Positions 1 to 27,763 of a stretch of 64,000 nucleotides of DNA are shown in pieces. Under the pieces are notes generated by a model. The model was not told the origin of the DNA. It worked only from the letters and a program-made list of their open reading frames with translations, and made no database searches. Each line of letters begins with the position of its first letter. Position 1 is the first letter of the stretch. A program made the translations under genes and the position numbers. Source of the DNA: Tubulanus polymorphus (Eukaryota > Nemertea > Palaeonemertea > Tubulaniformes > Tubulanidae); contig NC_134028.1 of assembly GCF_964204645.1 (NCBI RefSeq), forward strand, positions 20,806,153 through 20,870,152, read 5' to 3'.

Positions 1-1502
1 GTGTCTTTATACATGCTTAAAAAGGTAACAACTGTTCGAAGAAATTTACAACTAATTAACGCAAATTTCAAACGCCATCAATTCAATGCGTAAATACTTT
101 TCCTAGAATCAAATCCAAACCGTGATTAGAAATTGTCATGAAACCCACGCACTGGGTGCAGTAAGGCATCTTCCCGTATGATCACAATCTTTTCAAACTA
201 TATCAATCTCAAGCTGGCAATGATCCTGTTCTTATGGGGGCTGATTCTGGCCATAGTAAAATATTACGTACGGCTAGAGCAATGATAAAAAACATTTTCA
301 CATTGGCCCGTTTTTTTTTCTCGCGCGAAAAACCAAAATGTTTTGTTTTCTCGCGTGAGAAAACCAAAAGTTTTTAATTCTTGCGCTAGAAAACCAAGCG
401 TTTTGAATTCTCACGCGAGAAAACAAAAAAAACGGGCCAATGTGAAAATAAGTGTGTTTATCTTTGCTCTAACAGAAAATGTTTTTACTGTGGCCCGAAT
501 CAGCCACCATATGTTCCTCCGTTCAGAGTTAACCATAATTTCATTCATTTGTTTATATTGATTGCATGTATCTGTAATAAAACTGTCATCGTTTGTAGCG
601 AAAAAAGAATCAATCATGAATTTGCATTTTCCATACTAGCAGGTTCGAATCCCGAATTTTGCTAATGCCCTCATTTGTTTAATTGTTACGTATCGTGTGT
701 AACGGTTATATACTATGGATTTACGTTGTATAAAATATATAGGCTGTAATATTCTATGAATTATCAATGAGGGTTTGTGTGTTTGTATATTGATCGTATA
801 GGGACCATGCACATTTCACAAAAAATGACATTAGCAATATGTAATCAAGGCTACCACGTTCATGAAACTTGAATACGTATGTGAAGCGCCCCTCCAGCTT
901 ATGACTTTTGAAGTTTGCGTCACACATTTTTCATTAAAAACAAGCGAGGTCAACTGGCGGACTTTTTGTTAATAGCGCAGCAGATAATCTGAATGTATTT
1001 ATACATGACTGATATTCAATAAGGGATTAAATATAGTATAACGGAATGAAGTCTGCGCGTTATTAGAATAAAAACCAGTGTCGGTTATAACGGTATATAC
1101 GTACACAACCTTCACAGGTGAGTGTCTTCTATGGTAATCAATCTGATAATCTTGTTTATTCGATTAGCTATTCGATCTTAATTGCAATTTGTTAACTGTT
1201 TGCTTAAAACGATAAGGACCCAGTTCCCAGAATTGAATCTAAAACCTAAAACATCAGGAGGGAGTTTGTGTTAGATTTACGACCCTACCTAAGCTTATTT
1301 TTGGTTTCGTAACGTATATAACGCCTGAACACCAGTCTGAGGTTTGCTGAGGTTCTAAAGCGATTCTGATATCTTAAGACTGGCTCACAGTAATAATGCA
1401 CAGGTGTGACATTTTAAATCTAGATTGATCTGCGAGTACTATGCAACATGGCCCCCGGTGAATAAAGTTTTATCGTCCTATCATTTTACAGCAGTTTCAA
1501 AG
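1..1502. other. Non-coding stretch before the first gene
   Basis: I see no convincing exon here. The stretch holds one palindromic MITE at 233-511, described separately. The rest is AT-rich DNA with no clear reading frame. A likely 3' splice site (tttacag) just before 1492 suggests an upstream 5' untranslated exon of the gene that starts at 1503, but I could not locate that exon. Confidence 0.4.
233..511. repeat. Palindromic MITE, TGGTGGCTGATT family, copy 1
   Basis: The ends are inverted copies of TATGGTGGCTGATTCGGGCC, with a few mismatches on the left. A possible TA target duplication lies at the outer edge. A second inverted pair (CACATTGGCCCG and its complement) lies inside, at about 299-311 and 435-447. 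The core at about 312-432 is four imperfect tandem units of roughly 30 bp, each centred on a small palindrome of the form CTCGCGCGAG followed by AAAACCAAA. Related copies lie at 13120-13341, 18674-19022 and 26182-26402. There is no coding capacity; mobilisation in trans is inferred. Confidence 0.8.
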
Positions 1503-2596
1503 ATGACAACAACTCAGACATCGTCGATACGTAACGAGAGTCCCGGAGCGACCTCTAAACCGGCCAGTATATGTGGAATAGTCCAATCATTACCTAATGA
1601 CAATTCATTCTTATTACCGGAAGAATGGACGTTACCTCACGAACATATGATGGAGAAACGGGAACCTTACATGGCAAGTATAAAGGGGGGGGGGGGTATT
1701 TGTTTTAAGACGAATTCTAAGTCTTAAAGCAAGAATATCATATAAACCTTAACAGGTTTCTTCATGTTTCTCTCCATCTTGAATTTTTGTATTTGTACTA
1801 CTTTGTACGATTATTATAATTCAAAATGGAAAAATTAAATTATTATTGTTATTACTAAGACTCGGGAGCCGAGTTCCAATCGTTCCAGGAAAATGCATCC
1901 CACGATAAGTTCATTTCCAATATCGGTTGTTTATTGCTAATTCATGAGCACGACTCTAGTAGACCTAGTCAGTAACCTGACTGTGGTTTAGTTTCACGAT
2001 CGGATATTTTCACAAACCACATGTTGGTATAAGCCCATCCCATTATAAAAAGCTTACCACCAACGATTAGGTAACTAACTATAGTAGACCATACTTTCTC
2101 GCTTGTAAGGCTCGCGCTATTACTAAGCTGACACCAACCCAGCCCCTGTTCGTTAACTACCTTCTTTGGTATATCATACGATATTCTTTTTGATGCAGGT
2201 TACCAAGTCTTAAACCTAATGCATCAAACATATAGCTTAGTAAAGTGAAAATTCCTCTTTTCTTAGAATTGGAAGAAAGACGTTCAAAACCAGATCCTGA
2301 ATTTAGCCACGCGACTGGTAAGTGTTAATCCTAAAAAGCTGCACAGTTCCATCGATTTCCTCTCATTTGTCACAAAGTCTACTCGAACTCGGCGTTTCTT
2401 TCAGGAATTATCACTACGACAAAATCCACATCCCGAATGCGGACAAAGTCTACTCGATGGAACTCCAGATTGGAACCAGCCTACTCCTAAACAGTCGCAC
2501 GATGACGGAGCGCAGCCACCAGCTACGTGGGGTCATCCAACATATGGACGGGGGACTACGTTCAGTAAAACTGAAATCGATCTACAAGCCTTTTGA
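1503..2596 (+). CDS. Small three-exon gene of unknown function (137 aa)
   Basis: I do not recognise the product. Three exons join in phase: 1503-1673, 2267-2317 and 2405-2596, giving 57, 17 and 63 residues before a TGA. Exon 1 begins MTTTQTSS and contains the segment LPEEWTLPHEHMMEKREPYM. Exon 2 is a predicted helix (NWKKDVQNQILNLATRL). Exon 3 is rich in Pro, His and Gln and ends GTTFSKTEIDLQAF. Exons 2 and 3 use good acceptors (tttcttag, tttcag), and exon 2 has a gtaagt donor. The first intron would use a GC-AG donor (ATG/gcaagt). No signal peptide, membrane segment or known domain is visible. The case rests on three phase-compatible exons without stops and protein-like composition. A short cytosolic or axonemal protein is possible but unproven. 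Confidence 0.55.
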
Positions 2597-3281
2597 AAAC
2601 TTTCTAATTCTTAAAAATCTCTTCACTTGTGAAAATTGATTGTTTTATCTACACCATTAACAGTGCAAGAATATTACATATCACATCGAAAATTGTTTTA
2701 AGATCAGTGAGGTGGAGGTTTCATTTCTGTCAAGGTTACATGATATTACACGTACAACTGTTTGTGATTGAGTTTGGTAAACAACGACTTCCTGAAAGAG
2801 AGTGAAACAGTTATTAAGGAAGTTCGCATGGAAAGAGTTAACCGGTACTGCAATAGACTCATCATATCAAATCCCTACACACAGACAGATAGCTATATTT
2901 GTGAACTACGTTATATTAATTCATACAATTGATATTATCATTGATCCCAGTTTCACAGTTTCTCAGTTGATGTTCGACTATCGAAAATGAACTAGTTTAA
3001 CGGTGGTCAAAACTCGGGTCAGGTCTAACCAGAAACTATAACCCGATCCTAGAGTTTGGATGACCGTAGTCATAATATATATGATTTATAATATACTTCG
3101 TGTAGATTGGTAAGAAAGCATGAAGACGTTTTCTGTCATAGTTCATGATACTTTTACTCAACAACTATTACTTGCATTATGGGGACATGATTATGGGAAA
3201 ATATTACTAAGTAATAGGAATGATATTCTCAAAAACCTAGAAACCAATAGCGCCATTTAGTGGACCCTCACCCGCAAAAAG
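2597..3281. other. Intergenic gap between convergent genes
   Basis: The stretch lies between the stop of the small plus-strand gene and the stop of the minus-strand ROCO gene, so both 3' ends face each other here. It is AT-rich, has only short chance reading frames, and shows no repeat I could pair. Confidence 0.4.
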
Positions 3282-6200
3282 CTAGATCCTCGATTGCCAC
3301 GTAGCTACGAAAGCTCCCCTATTGTAAGATTTACCTTTTACAATAGCTTGTGCTCGTCCAACTTTTCGCACGGCCACATCTACAGACCTCACCGCGCCTA
3401 GCACCGCCTTAGCAGCGCCATCTATATCACCTGATTGAGTAGCTGCTGCTGCATCTGCCGTTACTTTAGCAGCTGTGACCTGACGTAGAAAATAGAACTC
3501 ATGAACTTTCACTAGATACTAAAATCGAACATCTTTATAACGATTGAACGTATCAGAAATTCATAGTTTTTATGAATTTGAATAGGCCCTGTCGGTATAG
3601 GTACGAATAGGCGTTTGATAAGGAACCATTCACACGATACAAACCCCTCCCCTCAAAGTGGCGTTCCAAGAATTTTAAGAGTGGCCACGCGCTTGATGTC
3701 GAAACATACCTATTTCATATTGAAATCATAATTTTTGAAGGTTATTTAGGCCATCGAAAAAGGCCATGTTGCTAAGCAAACCGCGCGCGATTTATATTGA
3801 CCACCGCTTTTGAATGCAAAATGTATAGATGTTTCGTACTGCTGGCTCCTATCAAACAAACTCAATCTGGACGGTTACACGGTTCATATTTCGTTGATAG
3901 TCTAAAGATAGGGAATGGATTCGAACCTGAGCCGAATTGATAACGCTTTGTATCGAGTCAGACTTTTGTTCGCTACACTTATATTCTTCTTCTATCAAAT
4001 CAGCAACAGACTGAGCCAATATGGCCGCTACGAAACCGGAAGCCATACGACTGACTTCCCGTTCCTGTTCGGAATGGTTTCTAATGACCGTATCTGTAGA
4101 AGCGGTTAATCTGTCATCACTAGTGATAGACTGAGGGGTAGTTGACTGATCCATGGTAACTGGTTGTGGAAGAGGGTGGTTTATTGTATTCCCTTCAGGA
4201 GAATGGTGCGGTGTAAAAATAATCCCACTCTCGGAATCGTCCAGTTTCCACTTGATGTTTGCGTTCTGAAATACAAAATCGAAATATCGCAGCTCAAGAA
4301 ATTTGAATTATGCAAATAGAATTAACCAAGGTCAATTTTACTGAAAATTGCTAAAAACAATTGAAACGTGTAGCTCTTAACTTTGAATCAAGCGCCATAG
4401 CGCCCATACATTCAATTCTACAACTAATTTCCTATTTCGAATGTTTTAAACATCGGATTCTAAGAGACGACTGCTGCACTTGGTTCTACTAAGCTGGGCC
4501 CTAGGGTTCTTGCTGTGAAGTTAACGCAAGTTTTGAACGAGTTATTAGACCAAGTAATTTCCTCAAACCAAACCTTCTTTTTCTTCTTCCTCGGTTTCTC
4601 TGACCCACTATTTTCTTCCTCCGACGGCTGCTGGTGATTCGATTTAGTGCCCGGCGTTTCGTCTGATAGATTATCATCATTGATCGCAAACAGGAGATTT
4701 TCTCTTCTGATGTTTAATTTTCTCAACCAATGAATCAAACTGGGAACTTCATAAACTAAAAACAAAAATAAAGCGACTACAAAACAATAAGAACTCAGGG
4801 CAGTTGAGCAGTCAAACCTTTCATTTTTAAGACCAGTATGAAAGGCCGTCTTAATAGTTCTGTAAGGCCACAGGAAAAGAAAACCCCGTTTCTCAGGCCC
4901 GACCAACCCGAGATTTCGTCGTTTCAAATAATCATTTTCAGAATAGAATATAATTGCCCACCCTTTTTCAAATTTTGGTTGAAATAATTTTTTTCAAAAA
5001 TATATATGTGGCCGTCCGACTATCAAACTCTCCATTCGCGTAAATACTTTTTTCAAATCGTGATGTCGGCTGAGATCAATTTCATAAAAATATTCTATAA
5101 CATCGGATTTAACAATTTGATTCTGGAAATGGTGCAGCCATGCTCAGACAACTTTGCTAATCGGACATTGATGGCGACCTAGGATTGTAAAATTCCAGGA
5201 ATTCCGTGGAATATGTTCAAAATAAGTAATCGTAAAAACACCTAATTTTTTTCATTAATCATTGTGGTCTACTAGCTGTTAATCATATTCCTAACTAAAA
5301 GTTTGGTCCAGTTAAAAGTGTATTTACGGCGACCTACCCCATTTCCAAAAGTATACCAAAATTGTTTTTCTATAAAAAGAAAAAAAACCTACCTACCCAG
5401 TTTGGTGGTTGCCCCGACCGAGTAACGGGAATTTTTTAGTGTGGCGTAACTTACAAATACAAACCTGAACCTGGTTGCACAGTCGAGACCTAGATCCAAA
5501 AGTACTCATATACAGCTCAAGTTATTAGGTCCAAGAATATTGAAACATCGTAAATTATTATATAGAACAGACCATGGACGTCTGAATGCCGATAACGTTC
5601 ATGGCTTTGAGTTATCTAAAATCGGCTAGGCCTTGACTGAACATCTGATCGCTAGGAACCTCTGTCAAAACATTACTTAATAATGTATTTAAGCCAATTA
5701 ACATCCCATTCTGTGAATTCAGAAACATCCATGATAAGATCAAATCTGCCAATAAGCTCAAATGGGCAAAGGCAATCTTTGGTATACAGTTTCATAAAGT
5801 TTGAAACTGCGTTAACTATCCTCTAAAGCATTCGGGTACCCGCGTACCGGATAGGGAACCCACGCCTAGTCAGTGTCAGTCTTACTAACCTTCATCTGGT
5901 ATCAGAAAATCTAAATTGACATTAATTGCAGGGTCCGTAGATGCATTCAGTATAGGCAATCCCTCTAGACACTTATACAAGTCAATAGCAGGTTCATCGG
6001 TGACGTCATCCTCTTCATAGAATACATCCCCATAAGATATCAGATTCACCTACATATTATGATTAATGATTAACGCGTAACATTACAAACTGGTTTATTG
6101 GTTTATTCTATTCTGGACCCCGGCCCTCCCCTCACCGAGAATGGCTGTGCTCCCTCGAAAAATCGACGATGTAACATGTTAAACGTAACAAAAAGAAAAT

Positions 6201-9200
6201 TGGAGTAGGCCCACATATCCTCCGCAATTCTACCCTTTCGACAAAGCTTCTCCTGGACGATAGTCCCGCTGTCCTCGGCATTGAAAACGTGGGAAATGTA
6301 CTAATTAACTTGAGTTAAACTTAATCATGGACCGAGAACTATGTGGCTCCTAGGATACTTTCCACGTGCTGTGGATATGTGAGTTTCTCGGGTGGAATAG
6401 CCCAACGGGTCTTTTATCATCATATCATATTTTCATTTACCATCAAAGGAGGCCATATTCACAGCCTCTTAGGAAGGGAAGTGTAATGACACTTCCCTGG
6501 TTTGCGCATTTCATTTCCATTTTCAATTAGTAACACGCCATTCTACGTTCTATTTAGGATTCTGTTAATTTTAGCTGACAAATCTTACCTTTGTATAAAG
6601 ACCTCGCCACTCAAAGAGTATCTTATCAATTAATTGTATGAAGAATGATAAATGTGCCCAGACGTCGGACACGGCGTTCAGTCGACGATTGGACCCACTG
6701 TCTTCACTGTCCGCGTTCATTCTACAACTGACGTCTATATACAGGGTGTCTTCACATTGGATACAGATTATTGCCTGAAACGTGTAAACAGAATAAACAT
6801 CATTAAAATACTCATGACTCAGAAAGACCAGCCCGATTCAACTAAAATGGTTTTAGACCGTGAGTCGAGATGAAAACAGGATATCCGTGTATGATGAATA
6901 AACGCGAAAAAATCCCATATTAAATACAGCCAAAACGAGAAACTTGAATAGAACTGTATAGTATTTTCGCAACGTTTCGGCTTAAGACAATTAGCCATCA
7001 TCAGTATGCATATATTCAAGTTTCTCTCTTTGGCTGTATTTATTGTGGAATTTCTCGCGTTTATGGATTTAGATCGTTGGCCCAGTTGCACATTCATTCA
7101 TCTTATCCGATTAAGTTATACATGTAGAACAAAAATGAGCTAAGACTGGTTTTGTTATTAGACCGACAGAACAATAAGAGAAGACTGTTCTTAAAAGTTT
7201 TAAAATTTGGTTATAGAACCAATTCTTTTTATTAGCTTTCACAAAGAGAGAATTTTAAGACTGGTCCGTTGATTTGTAGATTCGCTATAGAAACAAAATG
7301 ACCTGAGACTGGTCTTAAAAGCGTTGACAGTAGAAACAAATCGATTGGTGCAACTGGGTCCTTTATTAGATCTGATGTCAGTGATTGATGCCGCGCAAGA
7401 TCAGCATAATCCACAAATCCCACTCCTAATTTGCATATCCAAATTACTTTACCTCTGCTATTTTCAGTAACATGCCTCGTTTCCACGTGTATTGATATGA
7501 CTCGCAAGCACGTGATGTGTGAATACAGCCAATCAACCGCTCGAAACAACCCGGGGGAATCCCAACGGGAAACACGAGTCGCCACGTGATCTGTAAATCG
7601 CCCGGGAACGGTTTTGGCGTCCAATTTAATTGCTGAAAGGAAGATGAAGATTTGATAGACTTTCTTCAATCAGTTACTTAAAACGTCTTTCGCAATCAGA
7701 ACGTTTTGATTATGTTACGTTTACACTGCACTATAGGCCAGTTCCATCATATCTCTCGTAACAGGCTGCATACGTTAAAATATACGTAAACTCGGTAAAT
7801 TTCGGGATTTCTATCAACGAGCATTCAACGATGGAGATCTGGGACCACAAGGTCCGGGTTGATTTTTCCCAACGGTCTAGTGATCTGGTGGTATAGTGTA
7901 CGGGGTGTATTTTTTAGTGATGGGTTACTCAAAGAACTATGGGACCGAGTCCTAAACAATCAAATGCGTAGATATTAGTAGAAGAACAAGTTATTTGAGG
8001 TGATTGAAATTAAACGAATTATACTGTAATCATTGATTAAAGATGATTACTGTAATTTAACTTACCGGTGTTTGATTTGGAAGTAGACGCATTAGTGTTA
8101 TATAGTATTGAGTGGTCGATGAAAGATTCGGGAATAAACTCAATGATAAACCATTATCTATTGGTTTATTCTGTATATAAGGCATCAATATACCCAATCG
8201 ACATAAAAGTTTCATCATCAGCTGAATCTGATCTTCATTAAATGGAATAGTCTAAAAAATAGCACAAAAAACATGCGTGACGTATCAAACCAGGACCAAG
8301 TTCCACATATTGTATGGGTTTGATTTGGACCTATTTTTTACAGTTGTGTGGGTTTTGTTTTAACCTGGACCCAGTTCCTCAATTGTATGAGCTAACCCAG
8401 TTCCACATTTGTGTAGGCTCACCAATTTCCACAGTTGTGTGGGTTTTCTTTGCATCTTGACCCAGTTCCACAATCGTATGGGCTTACCCAGTTCCACAGT
8501 TGTGTGGTTTTGATTCAACTTTGATTGTGCAGGCCTAAATCATAGTTTTTTTTTATTGCTATCCCTAGGTCTACCTACCTGCCACAGCAGAGGAAACAGT
8601 ATCTCCCTGACAACGCCCCGTAATGGAATATCCTCCAATGCTCTTACTAGTACCGACGGGTTGGGTTTACTAACACTGCCCCCTGGTGGCCAGAACCGTC
8701 GAGATTCGAATTTGAACGATTTTTTGTCGTCGTCGATCAACAGTAGACAGATGGAGTTAGCGAGAGCGGACGGATCGAGGCAGACGAAATGGTTATATAA
8801 CCCATCAGGAAACATGTTAAACCGAATATCTAGAATAGCTCCCTAAAACATAGACAACAATAACAACAACAACGTTAGATAACGAGAAGAAAGATTCCAA
8901 CAGCGCTTGTTGTGAGTTTAATGTGACCAAAAAGCCAAAGATCCCAGTTTCAAAAATCTCCATTAAGACTAAACTCGAGAGTTTTGAATCAATTCATTAC
9001 AAATGTTTTATCAATAACCCTCGGGACAAATCTTAACGCGAACTGTGGAACTGGATCCTGAGCAGAACTGGTTCGGGTAGATTAGGGAAATAGGAGAAGG
9101 TACAATATCGATACCTACTGCATTTTGTAGAAATCTGAGTTGATTTTCAAATAGATCCTCGTTAGTAATACAGCTAGCAGTGAATGCTATATCTCTGATC

Positions 9201-12200
9201 TGAGCTCCAGTCAGTAATACACATCCAGAATGTTTCAATTTCAACAATTCGCTATATAACTCCACAGTTGACGAATCCACCTGGTTTACTATGTGCGGAA
9301 ATAACTGAACGTCCAGTGATAGATTAACTAATACTTCAGCGAGCTTATCCAAACCCTGCAAGAATAACATTTCAATCGTAGTCTAATATTTGTTTTCATA
9401 ATTTATTAGTACATAATTTGTGATATTCGAGATTTTTCTATTGAATAAGATATTATTGATATTTTTCTCGAAAATTCTTTTAACCAATAATTGACGAAAG
9501 AGATTTACTTTAGAACCGATTTTAGATCTGCTGTGTCATTTGATATCAGACGTGTGTGTAAAATCGATAGAGTAAATGAGAAAACTGATTTGATACCTTT
9601 CCAGTAATGAGATCAACGGAGAGAATTTCGTGGTGAAATATCGGTCTTTTGTACAACAAATACTGTAGATTATCGATCCGATTATCGATATTAGGATTCA
9701 ATTGAAGCGATCTAAAGAAAAGAATAAAAACAGAAAATGAACGATTAGAAATGAGTGGAACCGGGTCCAGTAACTGTGGTTCGAACTGGGAACTGGACTG
9801 TGGAGCTGGGTGGAACCGGGACGAGTAGCTGTGGATCGAACTTGGTCCAGAACTGTGGAACTTGATCTAGTCCAGTCTCAATTGACACTGACTCTCGAGA
9901 ATTTAGACAGACAAATGTTGCTGCTAGTTTGTCGTCATCCCTTAGGATACGGCATTATTTTCTGCGCACTGACCGCGGCATTTGCGCAAAGGTTATTTAG
10001 TTCGTTTTTTAAGGGGAATGGAGAGGGGTGTAACGCTTGTAATCATTACTATTGGATTTTAGTTCACGTTCCGCGCTTTAGAGTGATTTTTTCAAGGCGG
10101 TAATAAAAGGCAGCAGACAATCCCGCTTTAAAACATAGTACCAGACACCACAGACACCGGCACTGGGCTACCCGGAATTATGTAATTTATCCTATCCCAA
10201 GTAATAAGCCGTCTTGGTTGCATTCATTGACGTCACAGTAGGGGGGGATTAGAGATAATTACCTCATTGATAATTGATGAAAAACATAGACGGGCGCGAA
10301 TCCGAACGAAAATACGTTATAGCGCGAGTAAGCCGGATAGCGTAACGTGTTCATTATCAATAAGAATTATTTCTGCTAAATTAACTCAACCTCCATCTCT
10401 CATTATCCACCCTATAGAACTCTTGCAGCATCCACTTTCCTCGTCAGCTTTCTCTAGCATTTTAGAGGAGCGGTTCTTTTCCAAGAAAACGGACACACTT
10501 TTCAACCGTTTGCCCTATTAAAAAGGGACAGATCGTTGAAATGTGAAGTGCATGGGGGTACCTGAATAAATCATTTGAGAAATGGATTACTTTTCATTTT
10601 CTAAATTATATATGTCAATTGTATCCGAAATCGTGACCCAAAAAATCTTGACCCATAAATGTTTTCATATTGACTTTTTGGAGGACGCTTTGAAGATAAG
10701 AGGGGGTTCGTTCGCTACCTTTCGGCACGCCTGCACCCTTCCTCCTTCCCTCGATACCTCCACATTTAGAAAACTTATCACTTCGTTAAGATATCGTATT
10801 TACGGTAACCACGGTAACGTATCGATGATATCTTTTTTTGTGTCTCATTAAGAGAGGAATGATAAAATGGAGTAACTCGTTCGCTCTACGCTGAGAGTCG
10901 TCTAGCGATTAATTATTCTAGTTTCTAATAGCGCAATGAATGACTCGATATTTCCGTCAATTTTTCCTATGGGGTTCCCCGCGTGGAATGAAAAGGGAGT
11001 TTTATATATAGATTCAGATATGAACGAATTGATGGTTGATTTAGATGATCTAATGAGAATCGGTGTGGTTTTCGTTTTTCTACACTATCTCGTGCGCGTT
11101 CTACTCGAGCTCAGTTGCTGGAAATCAAGCGCAGCCGAGACGACATAAGCAGGGCCGCGATCCAGCTATTTCGCGGTTGGGTCAGGGGCGGATCCAAACG
11201 GGACAGTACAGAGAGCACGTGCTCCCGTCACAATTTTCCAGTGTCCTATTGAAAATACAACGGCAATATTTTTCAGGGCACTTTTTGCACCCACAACTAA
11301 TAAGACAGCGTATATATGTAATTTTCATTACAAATTCTGCTCCTCGATCCGGCCCTGTGCGTTTATATCTTTTGCCTCTCGCAAAACCGCGGCCAACAAT
11401 AGCCGTTTAAGCAACGTAACTACACCGTTGTGAACTGCTGAACGAAAGACACTTAACTCCGTTTAATCCAAAGAGTTCTAAGTAAGGAAATAACAGTTAA
11501 ATCCTACTAAAAGCGCCTTTAGTGGGATTAAAATCGGAATATAGGAAATAACAACTAAATTAAATCCATTCAACGTACGTGGGGTGATTACAGACAGCAT
11601 TTGGTTTATGGTTAGATCTAGACATTTATTGTAGAAATTACGTTTACCACCTTAACGTCTGGTCATTGAGCTTAACCTCAAATTTTTCATAGTTTTTTTT
11701 TATCTTTCTCCCACAAAGTGCATGTAGCCTGTATCTCTGGGCCTAGTGAGGAATATTGTATGCATAAATGTAGCCATAAAAACAAATTTAGCCCGGAACA
11801 AATGTTCACACGGGTGGCAAATGGGCCCGGTCCAAAGAGGCACTGGCAAATTTGGCCCAACTGAAAACGTCGGACCATTTCATCGGATAAATGATTGCGT
11901 TTTTTATTGCAACTGGTACCGGAAATAATCCACTTCGCTTCGTTTGAACATTGTTTAGTATCGAGTGAGTGGTTTACGTGCGAACGCACTCTCTACTAAG
12001 ACACGGTACAAATTTGGCTCGAGCCTGATCCGTGCCAATTTTGCCCGGGCCAAATCGTCTCCGTGTGATCGCGGCCTTGGTATGCATTATTTGTATGGGG
12101 CGCTACTCGGAAAATAACACGCGTTTTCCTTGATTTACCGAATAAACAAGATTTCGCCACATTTCAATTTGCATTCATTTCCTACTTAGATATGTAATCT

Positions 12201-15200
12201 AAACTTACTTTAAGTATTCTATTTCATCCGAAATAGCAGACACCTGATTGGTCTCCATATTAGTCAGTTGTTTTTGAATGTTGCGGTGTATCTCTTTGAT
12301 CTCGTTTTCGTCCGTACATTTATTGCGCCTGCTCGACACTACGATAATAATACCACCGGGAACCTGAAAACACGTAACGCAAAATACTTAAAAGTTTGAG
12401 TTGGAAAAGTCGACGTGATCCTACAGTAAACTGCGCTTTCCTCGGATGAGACCGGTGCATCTTTCTCCGACGCAGCAAGTGAATTACGGAAAGTCATCGC
12501 ATGAATTGGAGTTGGGAAAATTTAAGCTCGCCCACGCGGGGCACGTGATCGTCGAGGCAAGCCATAATCCGAGGCATCGGCCCCGTGGCAAGTCCGGGCA
12601 TGCCTGCGCTCGGGGCAATCGGCTCCACGGCGAGTGGCATATCTTACCTTAGCTTGTATAGAGTTCACACAGAGTAGTATATTATCACAGCTAACCTGAT
12701 CAGTGACGTCGCAAACGATGACGAACAAAATATCCCGTGTCATATAGATCTGATGAGCGCCTTGAGTTAACTATACAAAAATGATCACATCCGATAGAAT
12801 ATACGAATGTTCGAAAAACGTCAGCCGTTTGTTTGCACACAAGTGTTTTCTTAGCGATAGATCGACCAAGTTCATCGACGGGTATTTTACTCGGGAGTAT
12901 CGCCATCTAGTCCGTAAATTGACGAAGAGATAGGTCTCGAATGATTTTTCTCGCAAATACAACGATCAATTTTCTCACAAATTAAAAGTAGCCCGTCGAA
13001 AATACAACGTCAATGCGCAATGGTCCATCCATAGCAGAAATTACAACAGGTATATACCTCGTAATTATAGTTACACGAAATTCAGCATAAGATTATGAAT
13101 ATGTTAGTACACAGCAACTAATAGGAAATTTTCACATTGGCCCGATTTTTGGTTTTCTCGCGCGAGAAAACAAAACATTTTGGTCTGAAAATGTTTCTGA
13201 CTGGCCAGTAACTAAAAGTAAACAAAAATATCTTGTGTATTCTCACGCAAGAAAACCAAAAATGAGTCAATGTGAAAATTTTTTATCGTTCCTCTAGTCG
13301 TACAAAAAAATATTTTAGTATGGCCCGAATCAGCCACCATAGATGTACTACTATTAATTACATTTTTTACAAGTGAATTCTGGCAAAAAGTGAATAGCTT
13401 AGACTGAATGATACTTGAAGAGTTAAGTAATGATTTGTGAATGTCATAGTGATATTATAATGATATTGTATTTCTGCATGATGTTGTGAATTTGAGAATA
13501 CTCGGACCATTTACAAACCCATAAATGGAGACACGTTTCCACGAAACTTAGATTTACCAAAAAGTAAATATTCAACACACCTGACGCCCCGACAGATCCC
13601 AAAATTCCAACCGAAGATTCTTCCGTGCCCCGCATACTTCAACCTCTGGTACCGCGACACCTGGGGTGTTCAAAATATCTCAAATAACAATAAATAGCCG
13701 TTTATTTCAGAAATATACCGAGATCGTACCAGCGCATATACTCACCCCCTTCGCGGAACGGGTACCAACACGTGACATCAACGCCTTCTGTCGGTGAGTT
13801 ATGAAGTTTCGTGGTACCCGTCGTTATTGATTCTATTAAACTGGTTTTACCGCTTTCAGAATCACCCATCATGAACACCTTCAATCTATAGGAATAACAA
13901 ATACAGTTGGTAGATTTCATTATGTAGTTAGAATTTAGCTTGTTTTCGATGCCATTGAAAACAAGCTAACCCCCTGTTTCGCTCCCGGCAGGTGTGGTGG
14001 GTCTGTAAGGGACACTCAATCGAAAAATCAAACAAAATTTACCAACTAAATTGATAAATAACGGGGACAATCCCTATTTTAAGATTTAAAAACAGAAAAT
14101 TTCGCTAAAAGCTAATTTCGATTAAATGCCGATTTCGGACATGCTCTGAATATTGTCGCGGCGAATTTACTTAATTTCTTCAAAAACGTGGTATTCAAAG
14201 AAAAAAAACGTCATTCAGTAAATCATTGCCGCGGCTTTCTCCACTGCAGTCGCTGCACTTCTAACGCCGCTGAATGGGATACCCGCAACGCTAGGTTACT
14301 CGGTTACAGCGCTTCAATTTCTTCTACATTTCAATTAAATTCGAGTGAACTTTTCTCATTAGTAAATCAATTTCTAATAAAACTATACCATTTACTTATT
14401 GGGAACGCCAATCTTATATTTATTTGATAACTTATTAGACGACATTCCCATTTGTGAGCCTAAAAATCCAGTTCTAAGTTCATTGAAAATGAACTAATTT
14501 TTACTACGTAATAACTTAGTGTATTGTAGCGCCATCTGGTTCGTGCCAATATCCCATTAGTCTTATTCAGCGTCAAATATTCAATTAAGATTTGTAGAGT
14601 GCAGGGTGCTCATAAGTATGTTAATTTTAACTAGTCGCTAAGCTTAACGACCGGTTGAAATCCCTAACGTTAGTTCACATCCGCGTTAAAAGTGTCGCTT
14701 AAAAAAAACCGCTCGAAAAACCGGCGGCTTACAACCACAGTCGTTAAAACCCTGTAACGAGTCATTTAGAATCTCACTCAAAAAATGGCTACCTTCATTC
14801 CCAAGCTGCCGTTCAAGTGAAAATGCTCCTATTCTAGAACGTTAAGGTAAAGAAAACGTCAAGTTCTCTTCACAGGTGATTGCCCTTTTAAACGCGGCCT
14901 TTTTCAACCATCTCCTAAAATGGTCGCGTTTCAAAGCTCTTCATCCGACAGCTCAGGCTCTTGGTGGCCATTAACAGACAGATTATCATAATTTTCACCA
15001 TAGATGTTGTTGATGTGCCATTTTCTATTAAGATAAATGGCCGCGTTAAGGGGATTACGTGACTACAGGAGGTAAAAAATGTAACGACTGGTTTGGGAGT
15101 TTTAACGATACGATTACTTTTGAGCAACCTCAAAAGTACCTATCGTCAAAAAGCAACCTATCGTCTGGCTACGAAATAACGACTCGATAAGTCATTTAAC

Positions 15201-18200
15201 GACCCGTTAACAAACATTTCCTCTGATCTTGGGTTAAATTTGACTGGAAAATCAGTTCATTATCAGTTATCCTGACTATGATTAAAAACTCAGGGTTCAT
15301 ATATTCACTCAAAGTTGGTTTAAGCAGGGAAGTGTTATGAGATTACAATGAGTCAACCATCGCTTGGATGATAGATGCCGTTTTAAATGTCACTACCAAT
15401 GTCAGTTGTGCTCTAATTGACCAACTTCAGAGCTACAGATCTCAAACCTGTATTTACAACCAAAAAAAAAAAACAAAATGAATGTGACCGATAGTACGGT
15501 ACAATGACAAATTTGAATACCAATAATCGTTTCATCGATAAATTTGGTATGTTACGAGTGTGTACAATTTTTCTGGCGTTGGATATGTACAGGTATGTAA
15601 ACGTAATAATTAGAATGATCAAGTCCTTGATTAGAACTTCATTCTCGTCGTAACGGAAATTAGCAGGTATTTATACCTGCAGGGATAATTGCATCAGATA
15701 ATGAGACCAGTCACGTGACCTGTAACCTGTATTTGTGACGCGATGTTACGATCGATTTGGAGTGAAAACCTTGTAAGGAGTTGATACAGACCCAGAGCTA
15801 CTGCTACTGCTGGTGGTGGTAATATGATAGAAAATTAATTACGACCTTATGCACGATATCTTTAGGTGAAAACACATAGTCAGTTTCTTCCGTTAACAAG
15901 GACACAATATATCTAAGAGCTGATCGTTCACAATATTGTTCATTACAACGAGCTCATCCATAGCTCGCATACCCCTCACATCGAGCTACACAACTAGGAT
16001 TATAGCCCTCACATCGAGCTACACAGCTAGCATTATACCCCTCACATCGAGCTACACAGCTAGAATAATGCCCCTTTTATCAAGACGCAGCTAGCATACC
16101 GGCCTTCACATCGAGCTACACAGCTAGCAAGCATATAACCCACAGCGAACTACACAGCTACCATACCCCTCGCAGCGAGCTACACAGCTAGCATTATACC
16201 CCTTTCACCGAGCTCCACAGCTAGAATACCCCTCGCAGCTAGCATACGCGGAAGCGATAAAGGGCCTCGAGTTGTCGCGTTTCAACTCGACAAGTCGCCA
16301 TATTTATGTCGACGTATCGCGATATATCGCGTCAAGTCGACATGAATATGTCGACATATCGTGACGTTTTGACGACATATTTCGTTTTCACGACCATTTT
16401 CCTCGCGACAAGTCGACATATTCATGACGACTTGAAACTCAGTCGTCATATGACTGGCGTCCTCATCTTACATTTCGACGTGTCTTCAAATGACGGCTTG
16501 TCCCGTGGAAAATGGGCGAAAAAGCGAAATTTGTCGTGAAAACTTCACGATATGTCGACATATTCATGTCGACTTGACGCGATATATCGCGATACGTCGA
16601 CATAAATATGGCGACTTGTCGAGTTGGAACGCGACTACTCGAGGCCCTTTATCGCTTCCGTAAGCATACCCTTCACATCGAACTACACAGCTAGAATACA
16701 CCTCACAGCGATCGAGCTACGCAGCTAGCATTATACCCCACACAGCGTGCTACACAGCTAGCAAGCATACCCGTCCATCGAAATACAAATCATACCTCCT
16801 ACACTAATCGTTTGTATGTAACCGGAGGGTGCATTGGTAACGCGCCAGCAGGTTAACTAGGTTGGAGCCGAGATTCCTTTTTTTCAATTTCAAAATATAA
16901 TTGGGAATTCTTTATTGATGGTACACTTACCTGTCCAACGAAACTGTCGGCTATTACCTGACATTTTACAAACCAATGTGTTCAGAGTCGGTGTAACCCT
17001 TGCATTTTCTCTGATTAAAACGTTTTCCGACACAAACCTGATCGATGACTGAAGGGGAAGATTCGAGGTGACGGATGACACTGATCTGATATCCACGACG
17101 AAATATCGCGCTACTCGGATATTACGCCAGATCGAAACCATTCAACGGATTGATTTAATGTTCTGGTGCTAAAATTGCCCCTCGTAGGCCTACTAATAAG
17201 ACCAGTAACCTATCTGTCCATAAACCCCAGGACCGGTTTCATATATAGACTAAATCCAACTCATTACCTCAGGACTAATCTAATTGACATATTTTGCGTA
17301 AAGTTTAAGCCCAGAACCGTGTTTGTGACGTATTTAAATTGGTGCTATAGAACTATGATGTCCTTATACGGGCCTCAAATCTAAATATTCGCCGCGCAAC
17401 CGGAGGCCACGAGGCTGAAATTAAAACTGGTCTACAAAACCGGTCCCTGGTACGTGATGCCTTGAATAAGTTCCCTTACCTGTAGTTGAGGCAAAACGGT
17501 TTGTAGTAATCGAGCAGCGAGTCTGTGTCTAATTGAGCAATATCTGGGGAAGGTTTCACCAATAGAGGGCAGTCAGCGATGTTTAATTCTTTCAGACGAC
17601 TGAGGCAGACAATATCACGTGGTATGATTTTGATATTAGTTTTACTGAAGTTTACTGTTTCTAACTGGAGACAAAAGCGAATCAGAGACGCTAATGATTT
17701 ATCAGTTAAACGCGGACAGCCGGAAAAATTCACCCGTTCGAGTAAAGAACATTTTTGAGCCAGTGACGTCACACAGTGGTCCGTTATACGTTTACAATAA
17801 GAGAAATCTGCGTGTATAAGCCTCGGGCACCTGTCAGCTATCAGACACACGCCGACATCGGTTAGATCAGCTCCTGAGAATCCTAGTTTCCTCAGAACTC
17901 GACAACTTGTCGTTAACGATACCATACTCTGGTCGGTAATCAGCGGACACTCGTTGAAAATCACCTCGGATAAATCTCCGTAACATTCCGTGACGTAGTT
18001 CACGGCCATGTCGTTAATTTCCGGAAACCCGACGAGCGCTAACGAGTGTAACTCCTCGATACAGCTACGAACGATCACGTTCAAGATTTCCTCGTTTCCC
18101 GCCGAACGTTTCCGACTAGTTCCGACGCCTACCGAATTCGTCCGAACGAAAGTCAATTGGCTGAGTTTTTTCAATCGTTTCGCTATGGATGGAATCACGT

Positions 18201-21200
18201 TTAGGTCGATATCGTGACAGTTGATGAATTTCAGCGATTTTATGAATTTACAGTTGTTGACGATTTCGTCCAGACCGCGTTCAGTAAACGTCACCCGATT
18301 CATAATGAGATTTTTAAGTTTTGGGTTCAGTAAGTGACAGCTGAAACTGATATCGGTATCAGTGAGTTTCTCGCAATCTTCGAATTCAACGGTCTCCACT
18401 GCAACATTCTTTGATAAAGTCGCCTGCAATTGATAGAAATAAGAAAATCATCAAAACTCCAGGCTGTGTATCAGTGACGTAACCGAATTTTCCAATTTTC
18501 TCGGATTCACGCACTAAACGGGAAAGTCATAATCTCTATTTCAAGATGAACGATCATGTGTCACAAATGCAAAAATCATAATCGTGTGATCTCAATCTAT
18601 TATAGCCAATTCCAAATCTGGATCAATTAAGGCGGCTGTACAAAATAAATACCCACCAGTTGCTTGCCGGTTCTATGGTGGCTGATAAGGGCCAAATGCA
18701 TTAATTTTTACACGACCTCGATTATAGAAAAACGCAAAACGAAACCTATAGAGCAAAAACAAATTTTATGGCGCAAAAACGAAAAATCATGGAGCAAAAA
18801 CGAATATTTTCCTTTTTTGCGCTATAATATTTCGTTTTTGTGCGGTAGCAAAACGAAAGTTCGTTTTTGCTAGGGTGCAAAAACGAAAAATCATAGAGCA
18901 AAAACGAATATTTTCGTTTTTGCGCGGTAAAATTCGTTTTTGCTCTATAAGTTTCGTTTTGTGTTTTTCTATAATCGAGGTCGTGTGAAAATTAAAGCAT
19001 TTGGCCCTTATCAGCCACCATACGGTTCAGACTGGATTGACGACTGTCTGAATGAACCGAAAACGGAATTTCCAATTACTTATGTACTTTGATTTAAAAA
19101 ACGACTCAATTACATATTGTTATTCGATTTCCGATTTCTAAACCGCTGGTTTGCTCCCGGCAGGTGTCTGAGTTTGTAAGGGATACCAAATCATGCCGAA
19201 TTACAGAGATGAAGATGATCGGATATTCCACAAACGATAATTTATTTAGCAGAACCTAGTAGTCTCTTAATGATAAAAAGATTCCATTGATTTCCTAATT
19301 CAAGATGCGATCCTGGCCCAATAGAACTAGATTTGGCCACGAATATACCGATGAATTCTCAATGCAGGAGATAAGCTTACTTTCGAAAAATTAATATTAG
19401 ATATCATCAATCGCGATATTGTTCATCCATATTATTCTTTTTGAATTTCTTCAAAAGTTATTTTTTGCTAAAACGAAAAAAACTTTGTTGCCAAAAAAAT
19501 AAATGTGTTGTACTAAAATAACGTTATAAGACGTGCACCGACCAGGCATCAGAGAAAAATACAAGCAAAGAAAGCGTTGGAATAAAATCTAAATATAGGG
19601 GTAGAAAAACAAAACTTCGAATCGAGGAAACCCTTCAAAATATGTTGTTTCCTCCACAATCTAACCCTGATTTTTGCTTCTAATTTGTCTCCGGCAGGTT
19701 TTGGCGACGGGAAACCATTGAGTTCCCCACGTAAAATAAGACATATCTTTTAGATCGAAAGCAATGGACGACACAGAAGCCGTACAGGCATTGTTACTAA
19801 TAATGCTCATTGAACGGTTTACAATAATGTAATTGCGATTACCAATCATTCTTAAACCACCACGCCTTTCTATATCATTCTATTGTTCAGACTTACATCA
19901 TCTAAATATGTGAAATATTGATGTGGAATCTAAATTAGATTATTATCAGATTATTGGTATTTGTCATTACGATACTCTTTGATATATTGATACTCGAATT
20001 ACTTGTCACGTGTACAGGGCAACACTTCGTATACTTTGTCTTGGAACTAACATAAGAATGTTGACACTAGTCGCTTCTTTCATTCAGGCGGCCACCTTCT
20101 CTAACTATCAGCAATATCCACCACTTAAATACTTGAAAGTTAAATCGCTAGTTGCTTCTTTCATTCAGGTGGCCACCTTCTCCAATCAGTACTTCGTTAA
20201 GCTTTGTTTAACTTAAATAAATCTCTGAAAATGAAAATAGATGGAAGAAACCTATATCCGAAATGTCAATATAGTGCTATTTTTTAAATCCTCAATAAAC
20301 CGTCAAGTTATTTTTCTTGTTCAATGGTAGAACTGTGCGTGCGTGCGTGCGTGCGTGCGTGTGGATCTTCTATTTGAAGTGCACTGAGTGCTGTACTGAT
20401 GATTTTAGAATTCAGCCACACACACCACACGGACTGAGGGCAGTTTATTACGCGATGTTCATTAATTATTCAATATCTATTTCTTGGTAAATGATAAGTA
20501 GTAAACAGTAATATCTGATTGTGTTTTATTTCGCCATTGTGTTCAGTACCCCAGTATCCAGTACTAGTGTTCGGTACCAGTGTTCAGATTTCAATGATTT
20601 ACGTAAAAGTTAAACGTGGATTCGTTTTATAGAGTCCATGGTTAAAGTAAGGTGATTATGGGATTTGGAAATGATTAAAATTGGTTAACAGATTTTCCGT
20701 CACCAGCTACGATATCAAGCCGCTCAAACTTATCGAACATTTAAACACGGCGTTTTGATTGCAATTTGTTTAAAGATGTGAATTCGATCAGTGAATCAAT
20801 CCCCTAGGTAAATTTCCCCTGAGTAAAAATCCCAAATATTCTTACTAGGTACAAATTCACACTTGGTGATTTATAAGAACATTTCAAAACAAAATATTTC
20901 TCCAATTTTATTCATTCGCAGTGAGACTGAAATGTGTTTGAACTGCGCGATGAAATCTTTCGTTGCAATATCTTAAGTAAACTGTTAGAATAAAATAAAT
21001 TGTTAGAATTAATATTATGATAATGAAATGAAGTTTTGAACTTTAATAATGAACTTTTTATTTGTAATATCTTACAGTTCGAACTGGAATATTTTTTCAC
21101 CGTGAAATTTTGAGGACTTGTGGGATATTTGAGCTGTGCGATGCCATGAATTGTAAGAAATAATGAACTTCTAATTTGAAATATTTCAGATACAAGCTAG

Positions 21201-22649
21201 TGTATATTTGAAATGTGCGATGAACCCTAGCTGTGTGATAACTTTAAGTTCTAATTTGGTACTAATGAACTGTTAATTGTTTTGTATGCTTTAATGCAAA
21301 TAGTGTGTACTATAGTTTGTATGCTCATGATATCCTTATGGTGTTCCACAGAAAAATATGAATAAATTGGATATATGTATCAATAATATGAATCAATTGA
21401 CCTTAAGATTGTATCTACTTAGATTGCATTCAAAAGGAGGGGGATTTTTACCTACTTTGAAGAATTGGGGATTTATACCGAGGGGATTTTTATTATGGAG
21501 ATTTTTACCGCTAACCGTAATTTCAGATGGCTGGAAGCTGCTTGGTTCGCTACGTGCAACTGACACTGCACCTGACCGGTGCACCTGTTGCTAACAGAGA
21601 TTATCAACGCTTCACTAAATATTACATTCAATGTTCATCATAAGTACCGATCCAGAATATCGCGGAGCGTATGAGAAATACATTTTCGCGTTCTTCAAAA
21701 ATTGACCCTCTGAGCGCCACTCGAGGTAATAGTACTAGGTTCAAGGTTAGCGCCACTCGAGGTAATAGTACTAGGTTCAAGGTTTTGATTTGCCTCTCTT
21801 GGAGACATAGAAATATTCCCGCAATCACAATTCGAACCAATGGATCCTTGAATCCGTGAATTGATCCGAGAAGAAATTCCGGCATCGTTGTCCGAATGAC
21901 ACACCAAGGGGATCCTCACTTGCCACAAGAACACTATGTTGGTCGAATGAGTCGCGTTATTAGATTTATAGTGATTTTTTTTTCTATCGGTTGGAACTGA
22001 GCGTCGTCATGTTTATATAATATACAAAAAATACATCATTTGGAATGCACATCCCGCGGAAAGAAGGATTTAGAGGCATTTGACCTTTGACGTAAAAATA
22101 CTGGTCATACGGCACCATATTTTCTTGATTCAAACGATGGCAAACATACGTTGTTGTATTACGTACTATTCATAGTACGTACTATTCAGAACCATGTTAG
22201 ATAAATCTAAGAATTTGAAATGGGAGTTTCGATCATTCGAAAAAAAATTATTTCCAATATGGCGGCAAACGACGTTGATTTGGATTTTCTCATAACGTAG
22301 CCACCGATAACATAATTCGTAGATGTGAATTATTAATAAAAAGAAATTTCAGCGCCTTTTCAGCGATTGTCCAACAGGTTTTATTGTATACAAAAGAATG
22401 AATCTACAGAAAATGAATTCCAATTTTTTCCCTGTAATGCTCAGGAAAATTCCAGAATGATCAGATTTCGACAGAAAATTGAGACAAAACGATTGTAAGT
22501 ACAACTGTGAAACCTAATCCAATTAGCACGTTATAGTTTCCGTTTCTCCACTAAGGCATGTGATAAATGGTGCGATTTGAATTTAGCAGGTAACATACCT
22601 TCAACGACAATACAGTGGAGTCTTTATCAAATTTAACGTGTTTATCCAT
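3282..22649 (-). CDS. ROCO-family protein: Cys-type LRRs, Roc GTPase and COR domain (about 1179 aa)
   Basis: Sixteen exons join in phase, listed in transcript order: 22649-22599, 18423-17480, 13885-13746, 13660-13581, 12770-12648, 12363-12209, 9711-9597, 9355-9119, 8842-8579, 8251-8066, 7632-7453, 6774-6589, 6049-5890, 4755-4574, 4265-3927, 3479-3282. Residues 18-331 are about ten leucine-rich repeats of the cysteine-containing F-box/AMN1 type (C..LTD..V motifs). No F-box is seen. Roc spans about 332-510: P-loop GDSESGKTS, switch II WDLSGRQ, then VPGGIIIVVSSRRNKCTDE near the guanine-specificity loop. COR follows to about 887, with the hallmark WRLVFPVGIPPGCFERLI near 785. The tail has a basic run, a Ser/Thr-rich part and an Ala-rich end. 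No kinase or death domain is seen. ROCO proteins are large GTPases that signal as dimers; this one's role is unknown. Least certain: the last two junctions and the final exon, which could instead splice at 3335. An exon between 18.4 and 22.6 kb could be missed. Confidence 0.85.
8290..8520. repeat. Degenerate minisatellite around CCCAGTTCCACAGTTGTG
   Basis: About six imperfect units of 35-45 bp share the core CCCAGTTCCACA(G/A)TTGTGTGGG. They lie between ROCO exons 9 and 10. The same core, inverted, recurs at about 9755-9865 and as the terminal repeat of a small element at 35533-35651. Confidence 0.65.
11183..11356. repeat. hAT-like MITE remnant with CAGGGGCGGATCC end
   Basis: The left end reads CAGGGGCGGATCCAAAC and the right end GATCCGGCCCTG, a degraded inverted pair. 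Other members of this family in the window are at 30053-30325, 36271-36725, 37838-38098 and 48641-48882, with a lone end near 53853. CAGGGG-type ends are typical of hAT elements; no target duplication is clear here. Confidence 0.55.
13120..13341. repeat. MITE, TGGTGGCTGATT family, copy 2 (left end decayed)
   Basis: The right end reads GGCCCGAATCAGCCACCATA. Inner inverted repeats TTTTCACATTGGCCCG and TGAGTCAATGTGAAAA flank a core with CTCGCGCGAGAAAAC palindromes, as in the copy at 233-511. The outer left terminus is not recognisable. It lies between Roc-encoding exons 4 and 5 of the ROCO gene. Confidence 0.7.
15950..16795. repeat. 30-bp minisatellite (TCGAGCTACACAGCTAGCAT), split by a MITE
   Basis: Units of about 28-32 bp contain CTCACATCGAGCTACACAGC, followed by TAGCATTATACCC or variants. 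They run from about 15950 to 16250 and resume from about 16665 to 16795. The interruption is the palindromic element at 16251-16660, so the array is older than that insertion. It lies in ROCO intron 2. Confidence 0.85.
16251..16660. repeat. 410-bp palindromic MITE inside a minisatellite
   Basis: Terminal inverted repeats of about 100 bp begin CGGAAGCGATAAAGGGCCTC and contain many nested short palindromes (CGATATATCG, GTCGACAT). The two arms match almost base for base (16251-16350 against 16560-16660). A decayed relative lies at about 57345-57500. No open frame is present, and the family is not identified. Confidence 0.8.
18674..19022. repeat. MITE, TGGTGGCTGATT family, copy 3 (GCAAAAACGAA core)
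   Basis: Near-perfect ends TATGGTGGCTGATAAGGGCC and complement, then inverted CACGACCTCGATTATAGAAA arms. The core at about 18735-18960 is tandem and inverted copies of GAGCAAAAACGAAATT-like words. The ends match copies 1 and 2, but the core is unrelated to theirs. It sits between ROCO exons 1 and 2. Confidence 0.85.
20055..20362. repeat. Local duplication and GTGC microsatellite
   Basis: A stretch with CGCTTCTTTCATTCAGGCGG at about 20070 is repeated about 80 bp downstream with a few changes. A (TGCG)n microsatellite of roughly five units follows at 20337-20361. Both lie in intron 1 of the ROCO gene. Confidence 0.6.
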
Positions 22650-23472
22650 CGTTTCACTGGGATAAAATCATTTCTGGTTCAATATGCCAAACGTTACCAT
22701 GGTAAACACTGTGGAGTTTGTGAAAAGCGTCAGCTGCAGTGGCGGTATAAGCGCCACTCGGCGGCTGTATCGTAAACAAATATATTTATCGTTTCCGATA
22801 GATTTTATGACCGGGTTTTATAGTTCTATAGCCAATAAACAACTATGTCCAACCTTTAGATCTAAGATCATTTTGGACACGAGTCACGACTGTACGGTAA
22901 CTACGCCCAGGTCAGATTAGACAGTTGTGTAGTCATTGGATTTAACACCAGTACGCAATGGCTCACTCAATCCAGGGAACGAACCCTTAAACAAATCAGC
23001 TCAGGTCTCAATAACAGAATGACTTAACAATTTCATTGAAATCTTTATGATACATGTAAACAATCAAACTTGTTCTGTGAAATGCCAGAATTGAAAATGT
23101 GTTCTAAACTCGCGAGTTTCCCAGAACATTTTGAAATTATTCATTCCCAATCAAAACGTTCGAAAAGGTTTTACATTATCCCCAAATTCCTCTTGAATAT
23201 TTCATTTTGTGAATTAAACTCAAGCTTTATCTATAGTCAAATGATTGATAACAGTTTTCCGAGTTTGCAGTGCGATAAATGCTGTCCGCTGGAAGAGTCC
23301 AATATCATAGCCCCGTCCGCCACTGGGGATTGGCCAGTACTTGATTACGTCACACGTATCATTTGAACGCGCGCCAAGCGACAAATAAATATGTATAGAA
23401 GTTTATTAATTTGTAAGAAAGAGAATATATTATCGCGATAACGATAACTGCGGTTGAATCTCTAAATAAAAC
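22650..23472. other. Shared upstream region of the divergent ROCO and receptor genes
   Basis: This 820-bp gap lies between the ROCO start codon (minus strand) and the receptor start codon (plus strand), so both promoters probably lie here. I see no TATA-box motif I would trust and no repeat. Short reading frames in it look like chance. Confidence 0.35.
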
Positions 23473-24411
23473 ATGGTCGCCTGGTTCAAATCCGTTTTGT
23501 TGCCGGTATCGTTTATATTAGCAATATTTATCGGGAACGCAATTATCATAAGGATTATAATGATCAGAAAAAAAGATACGTTATTACTACATTTAAGTCT
23601 AGGATTGGCAAACGTAGCGGTTGGTATGGTTCTATTGTTGCACGTTGTCCGTTTGGCGATCATCAACGGTGGGTTGGGCGGAGAGGACGTTGTCAAGACA
23701 TTGGTGATTTGTTTGTGGAATACATCACGTTTCGCTCTGTTGGGGACACTGGTGTGCATTGTTGCCTATCGTAGCCTGAAGATAAACTTTCCGTTGCGTT
23801 TTCCGGCTATCGTTACGCGTAAAAAGATTATATGCTTACTGTTGTGCGTCTGGCTTTTATCTTCAACTATTGGAATTGTGATTTCAATTTTTGTCGACGA
23901 CTTAAATGTTATGTTGATTACACCCGTAAGCGTTTCAATTGTTGCCGTTGTCATAGCGGTCGCGGACGCGCAGATTTTTTACGTAGCTCACCGCCACAGA
24001 TGTAACATGGGAAAGATGAATCGGGCGACTCCGAATTTGGGACAATTGCCGAATATCAAGTCGGTCGGAAGATCGCTACGAACTTTGATCACGTCGACAA
24101 TTCTATTTTGCTTATTCAATTTACCCTGTTGTATTTCGTGTATTGTGGAAATTCGCACGGGTTCGATCAACCCGACAACTAGATTAACTACAAACTATTT
24201 AATGTTTGCATTTTCGATCGTAAATCAGATTGTATATATGAAATTTAGGAAGTGTTCCATACATCACGTGCCACAGCAGCAAACTATTTCGTCTATATCT
24301 CGACAGGATAATCCCAGTATTGCGACATCTGGACAGGACAATCCCTGTATTGTGATATCTGGACCGAACAATCCCAGTATTGTGATTGACCCATCGACAT
24401 TAAACTTATGA
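23473..24411 (+). CDS. Intronless seven-transmembrane receptor, rhodopsin-like GPCR (312 aa)
   Basis: A single uninterrupted frame encodes seven hydrophobic segments at about residues 8-30, 38-62, 78-98, 118-140, 148-170, 203-226 and 238-258. Marks of the rhodopsin-like class are G21-N22 in TM1, LSLGLAN in TM2 (Asn47 where Asp is usual), Cys80 at the top of TM3 and Pro218 in TM6 (FNLPCC). The DRY box is AYR (98-100) and NPxxY is NQIVY (251-255), so both activation motifs are altered. The extracellular N-terminus is very short. The C-tail carries three repeats of a ten-residue unit built on (D/N)NP(S/C)I. Ligand and G-protein coupling are unknown; invertebrate genomes hold many such orphan receptors. 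The length, intactness and start codon are all consistent with a real gene. It is divergent from the ROCO gene. Confidence 0.8.
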   Translation: MVAWFKSVLLPVSFILAIFIGNAIIIRIIMIRKKDTLLLHLSLGLANVAVGMVLLLHVVRLAIINGGLGGEDVVKTLVICLWNTSRFALLGTLVCIVAYRSLKINFPLRFPAIVTRKKIICLLLCVWLLSSTIGIVISIFVDDLNVMLITPVSVSIVAVVIAVADAQIFYVAHRHRCNMGKMNRATPNLGQLPNIKSVGRSLRTLITSTILFCLFNLPCCISCIVEIRTGSINPTTRLTTNYLMFAFSIVNQIVYMKFRKCSIHHVPQQQTISSISRQDNPSIATSGQDNPCIVISGPNNPSIVIDPSTLNL

Positions 24412-27630: not shown

Positions 27631-27763
27631 AATGTTTATGTACGCTATCCCTTACACTACTACCAACAACTCTGATATCGCCGACCCGTTCGATCATCTT
27701 CGTTGAAACGTTGTTTGTAAATATAATTGTCCGTATGTTTTTCAGGTTTGTGCAGCCGAAACG

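Follow-up and report, generated by a model that had tools for sequence, protein, structure and literature searches.

Within a 64,000-nucleotide stretch of the genome of the nemertean Tubulanus polymorphus (contig NC_134028.1, positions 20,806,153 to 20,870,152; hereafter the window, whose own positions serve as coordinates throughout), the minus strand carries a gene model for a protein of the ROCO family, in which a Roc domain is directly followed by a COR domain. The core of the model consists of 11 exons running from 18423 to 6589 (Table 1), separated by 10 introns with GT-AG borders and matching phases, and spliced together they form an open reading frame (ORF) of 870 amino acids without a stop. 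The domains, their in-phase joining and the letters of the G4 motif can be read directly from the DNA, as can the domain order: leucine-rich repeats (LRRs) of FBXL type, then Roc, then COR. Ranked by a crude score against all AG and GT dinucleotides of the minus strand between 3 and 23 kb, 10 of the 11 acceptors and 9 of the 11 donors reach at least the 95th percentile, the remainder being the acceptor of Roc exon 3 (89th) and the donors of COR-A exon 1 (77th) and Roc exon 5 (90th). An earlier interpretation made from the letters alone (the sequence-only reading) had joined a longer exon set in phase, from 22649 to 3282; the 11 core exons of that set stand, and its first exon and its last exons are unconfirmed. 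The motifs that it quoted lie on the minus strand, GDSESGKTS and WDLSGRQ in the first two Roc exons and WRLVFPVGIPPGCFERLI in COR-B exon 1.

Table 1. Exons of the ROCO gene model and candidate end exons (window positions; percentiles by the crude splice-site score).
Feature	Position	Strand	Observations
LRR exon	17480..18423	-	phase 0 to 2; ~10 LRRs; acceptor 99th, donor 100th percentile
Roc exon 1	13746..13885	-	P-loop GDSESGKTS at 13866-13840; Pfam Roc 1.8e-6 from the ORF alone
Roc exon 2	13581..13660	-	G3 motif WDLSGRQ
Roc exon 3	12648..12770	-	contains LTQGAHQIYMTRDILFVIVCDVTDQ; alignable to LRRK2 Roc
Roc exon 4	12209..12363	-	altered G4 motif SSRRN at 12336-12322 (LRRK2 counterpart GTHLD)
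Roc exon 5	9597..9711	-	end of Roc, ILSVDLITGK; placed by splice sites, phase and position
COR-A exon 1	9119..9355	-	COR-A portion of the COR profile match, 3.8e-5 by itself
COR-A exon 2	8579..8842	-	splice sites and phase; COR profile match
COR exon 3	8066..8251	-	within the stretch matched to L009 by blastp
COR-B exon 1 (WRLVFPVGIPPGCFERLIG)	7453..7632	-	Pfam COR-B 0.0073-0.0081, below cut-off; blastp to L018 COR-B 3e-6
Probable COR-B exon 2 (HLSFFIQLIDKILFEWRGLYTK)	6589..6774	-	splice sites, phase and position
Possible first exon (MDKHVKFDKDSTVLSLK)	22599..22649	-	phase 0; ATG at 22649 and strong donor only
Possible tail exon	5890..6049	-	phase 0 to 1; no Pfam match
Possible tail exon	3927..4159	-	phase 1 to 0; alternative phase-1 acceptors at 4192 and 4093
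Possible last exon	3282..3479	-	alanine-rich stretch, stop at its end

The LRR exon resembles F-box proteins. Searched against the Protein Data Bank (PDB) with phmmer, it matched FBXL2 (2.2e-22) and FBXL17 (9.8e-20) best, followed by Skp2 (4.7e-6), KDM2 and FBXL5, all near 1e-5. The cysteine pattern C..[ILV]TD is present four times along its 315 amino acids, against a mean of 0.02 and a maximum of 1 in 2000 shuffles; three further ROCO proteins encoded in this genome (L009, L010 and L018 in our numbering of places) lack it in their LRRs. The cysteine-containing FBXL/AMN1-type repeats that had been proposed are thus borne out. What the sequence-only reading did not mention is that these repeats, several in number, are followed by a final repeat of canonical type (LETVNFSKTNIKIIPRDIVCLSR) and then by the linker DCPLLVKPSPDIAQLDTDSLLDYYKPFCLNYR; the pattern used for canonical LRRs is narrow and gave one match in the window, two in L018 and none in L009 or L010. 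A search of the genome (267.8 Mb) with the LRR exon returned the exon itself and 13 other places (E 1.2e-15 to 0.003). Those that were scanned are FBXL-like, with a Pfam F-box in five of six ORFs (L028, L029, L031, L033 and L036; not L037).

The LRR exon ends in AACTACAG/GTAAGG and Roc exon 1 begins at CTATAG/ATTGAAGGTG, and their join in phase 2 gives LNYR/LKV across one intron, just as had been claimed. When the 39 amino acids before Roc were compared with the linkers of other ROCO genes, the summed score was reached by 3 of 1000 shuffles, the single scores being matched by 41 (L009), 164 (L010) and 10 (L018) of 1000. It could be supposed that two neighbouring genes lie here, the first coding for FBXL-like LRRs and closing after LNYR, the second for Roc-COR: read unspliced, the LRR exon meets an in-frame stop directly after LNYR, the 17480/13885 intron is the longest of the core model (3594 bases), and among seven other upstream exon candidates one, from ATG 17141 to 17038 (34 codons, phase 2), could serve as a start for Roc. 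Against this, the junction has a strong donor, a good acceptor and matching phase 2, the LRR exon itself contains both the canonical last LRR and the ROCO-like linker, and Roc exon 1 opens mid-codon and therefore requires an exon upstream. We regard two genes as very unlikely; phase, splice sites, last repeat and linker together support the assignment of the LRR exon and the Roc-COR exons to one predicted gene.

Pfam scans, which covered individual ORFs and exons as well as the spliced protein, identify Roc (PF08477) at 2.7e-14 (53.8 bits; cut-off 27). The best PDB match of this domain is LRRK2 Roc (1e-6), NCBIfam returned small_GTP (7.9e-9, under cut-off) and two weaker matches, and PADLOC gave none. 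The P-loop and WDLSG are retained. The G4 motif, on which the sequence-only reading was silent, reads SRRN in place of THxD, and the alignment to LRRK2 pairs GTHLD with SSRRN. By comparison, T[HK]xD is present in all five of the other ROCO places that could be read (L009, L010, L018, L013 and L014; seven places found). In Ras the same Asp-to-Asn change shifts specificity to xanthine nucleotides (PMC7952092). The change in the window gene suggests that guanine recognition may be weakened or altered.

COR is more divergent. The window COR scores 3e-7 with a profile built from L009, L010 and L018, where 3000 shuffles gave 1.1 at best, and COR-A carries this match; phmmer relates the domain to L009 at 1.2e-6 (best of 2000 shuffles, 0.37); in a three-sequence search, blastp relates the window COR-B to that of L018. 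For the last exon of the core, 6774-6589, the summed similarity is not significant (equalled by 212 of 1000 shuffles; for L016 alone, by 13 of 1000). Weak COR scores are not rare in this genome: COR-A stands at 1.4e-4 in L009, 1.6e-5 in L018 and 9.8e-16 in L010. Given the matches to the same-genome profile and to L009, we take the window COR to be a real but divergent domain, which agrees with the Roc plus COR module proposed earlier.

Searching the genome with the Roc-COR exons returned, among the best candidates scored, these exons themselves and L018 (6e-8) only, and no second copy of the gene was found with either the LRR exon or the Roc-COR exons among the candidates so scored. There are at least seven other ROCO places (L009, L010, L012, L013, L014, L016 and L018). 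This is a lower bound since most of the 95 Roc matches lie outside the count, which was drawn from part of them and leaves out L005, L008 and L023-L026. Roc matches that looked by eye to be of Rab, Ras or Rho type (L001-L004, L006, L007 and L019-L022) were set aside.

Around the core, 31 minus-strand ORFs of at least 45 amino acids between 18.4 and 26 kb, and one more at 26.3-26.7 kb, were scanned, and an F-box was found in none. Downstream, the window has 24 minus-strand ORFs of that size, none of which shows a kinase, death or TIR domain; smaller exons would escape both scans. Ankyrin repeats and WD40 did not turn up in the ORFs scanned. The statement of the sequence-only reading that F-box, kinase and death domain are lacking therefore holds for the flanking ORFs scanned. 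Three groups of ROCO proteins are distinguished in a review: LRR-Roc-COR, kinase-bearing and DAPK (PMC6337361). With N-terminal LRRs, COR directly after Roc and no kinase, the window protein falls into the first of these, and like MFHAS1, plant Tornado1 and CtRoco it has LRRs followed by Roc and COR; it differs from them in its mostly FBXL cysteine-type repeats and in its altered G4 (the LRRs of Tornado1 are described as ribonuclease-inhibitor-like; PMC4104024). It shares Roc and COR with LRRK1 and the Parkinson's protein LRRK2 of group 2, LRRK2 being the best PDB match of its Roc, but its LRRs are of another type and the C-terminal kinase was not found in the scanned downstream ORFs, nor ankyrin or WD40 in the ORFs scanned. 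From DAPK1 (group 3), which has a kinase before Roc, a death domain and no LRRs, the window protein is set apart by its LRRs before Roc and by the absence of kinase and death domain from the scanned ORFs. FBXL proteins, among them FBXL2, FBXL17 and Skp2, have the same LRR type; in the window gene Roc-COR follows the LRRs and the scanned upstream ORFs hold no F-box.

The sequence-only reading took known animal ROCO proteins to be LRRK, MFHAS1 and DAPK1 and thought that this gene might represent an undescribed subclass. The first premise finds no support in the literature: up to forty ROCO domain combinations are reported in animals (PMC11378527), Aplysia has ROCO proteins with TIR, Mbt and EF-hand (PMC9334734), and a gene called Novel Gene 1 was described from all sea anemones examined in that study (PMC5094078, BMC Genomics 2016). 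The description gives Novel Gene 1 an LRR region called FBXL by Swiss-Prot BLASTx, Roc, a low-threshold COR and TIR_2, with a dN/dS of 0.12. The FBXL-like LRRs, Roc and COR of Novel Gene 1 weaken the second claim. Compared by published description, the two genes share FBXL-like LRRs, a Roc/Ras domain and a low-scoring COR in the same order, and differ in the TIR_2 of Novel Gene 1, for which no counterpart was found in the window gene. The architecture is a variant of the published sea-anemone design, and what is new in the window gene is that no TIR was found and that G4 reads SRRN instead of THxD. No other report of F-box-type LRRs joined to a ROCO protein was found in the open-licence papers searched. 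It is possible, although the odds are somewhat against it, that the window gene is an orthologue of Novel Gene 1 whose TIR_2 has been lost or is hidden in small unrecognised exons, and a role in innate-immune signalling would then follow. The shared LRR type, Roc, weak COR and domain order (PMC5094078) favour this; none of the 24 downstream ORFs contains TIR_2, however, and on the minus strand a TIR box-1 pattern was missing both from window positions 1-6600 and from L051, the stretch to the left of the window.

The reading that we prefer, with a probability of roughly 0.6, is that of one intact gene for an LRR-Roc-COR (ROCO) protein whose LRRs, except for the last, are of FBXL type and which would work like a group 1 ROCO protein. 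It is probably a variant of the group 1 LRR-ROCO design, in which the LRRs would act as sensor for a Roc-COR switch whose nucleotide handling is probably altered. Besides the unspliced stop, the long intron and the alternative Roc start described for the junction, several results weigh against this reading. In the spliced protein Pfam COR-B reaches only about 0.008, below cut-off, and COR-A gives no match; COR-B alone scores 1.3 with the same-genome profile, the COR match to L010 (0.2) is no better than shuffles (0.37), and COR alone has no match in the PDB. The altered G4 places GTP switching in doubt, and a profile of the L009, L010 and L018 linkers did not match the window linker at E 10. 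The structure prediction proposed by the sequence-only reading was run from the single sequence of the LRR exon and reached a pLDDT of 35, too poor for use. Some of these features would also be expected of a degenerate or dying ROCO gene, in which decay would account for a COR below Pfam cut-offs and for the altered G4, a motif that is kept intact in the five readable ROCO places elsewhere. Decay nevertheless appears improbable, as the 11 exons are without stop or frameshift, all introns are GT-AG, and P-loop and WDLSG are retained.

For the group 1 variant, we infer that the gene is transcribed as modelled and that the LRR solenoid would bind a partner or ligand, with Roc-COR switching and dimerising with nucleotide state through the LRR-Roc linker; in CtRoco this linker acts as the hinge of a GTP-driven change (PMC11052575). 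The output would be scaffolding, because no kinase, death or TIR domain was found. The kept last LRR and linker would fit a switch that needs this part, with the outer LRRs being exchangeable. A more speculative and rather unlikely proposal, made by analogy, is that an LRR sensor taken over from F-box proteins and the Asp-to-Asn change at G4 together make either a switch with changed nucleotide preference or a nucleotide-insensitive scaffold. If the preferred reading is true, ROCO proteins could swap their LRRs for those of another class yet retain the last repeat and the hinge to Roc, which bears on the question of which LRR portion communicates with the switch; taken with the sea-anemone genes, it would point to FBXL-type ROCO proteins as a lineage scattered among animals. 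The natural Asp-to-Asn change would offer a handy test of the need of ROCO proteins for guanine nucleotides.

The ends of the gene are less well defined. A candidate first exon and three tail candidates chain in phase with the core down to a stop at 3282, giving the span of the sequence-only reading, which had the protein end in an alanine-rich stretch. The phases allow that tail to be attached, but the signal of codon bias is insufficient to separate coding from non-coding sequence at the ends (for the modelled exons, leave-one-out scores scatter about zero), no homologue was found for the end-exon candidates, and the single PDB match of the tail candidates is weak (0.93). The candidate first exon, the candidate tail exons and the alanine-rich tail are thus unproven. 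L051 contains two Sushi exons (3.1e-8 and 5.7e-6) and, by eye, a signal-peptide-like start, all in the orientation of the ROCO gene, so another gene probably begins just left of the window; this suggests that the ROCO gene should end inside the window. The Sushi exons and a long Ala/Gly-rich frame of L051 lie at positions 4369-6775 (-) and 2516-3244 (-) of that stretch. In the tail candidate 4159-3927 (-), EVSRMASGFVAAILAQSVADLIEE resembles by eye an amphipathic PKA-anchoring helix.

Upstream of the ROCO gene, on the opposite strand, lies an MRE11-like frame at 27707-28912 (+) (Metallophos 9.8e-16, Mre11_DNA_bind 1e-10), and a rhodopsin-type G protein-coupled receptor frame, close to the candidate first exon of that gene on its upstream side, at 23470-24411 (+) (7tm_1 2.4e-4, below cut-off). 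A second 7tm_1 fragment, also below cut-off (2.8e-4), is found at 55831-56115 (-), a PAN domain exon at 59653-59955 (-) (7.7e-6) and a protein kinase exon at 48942-49382 (-) (2.2e-8), the last presumably IKK-like from its look by eye. Elsewhere in the genome, L029 and L033 (C6, ~9.57 and 9.50 Mb) have near-identical first parts that are FBXL7-like (named by eye), lie ~77 kb apart and both contain a Pfam F-box, being either a recent duplication or an assembly duplicate. Finally, tandem repeats with in-frame units STNTEY occupy positions 46295-46585 (+) of the window.

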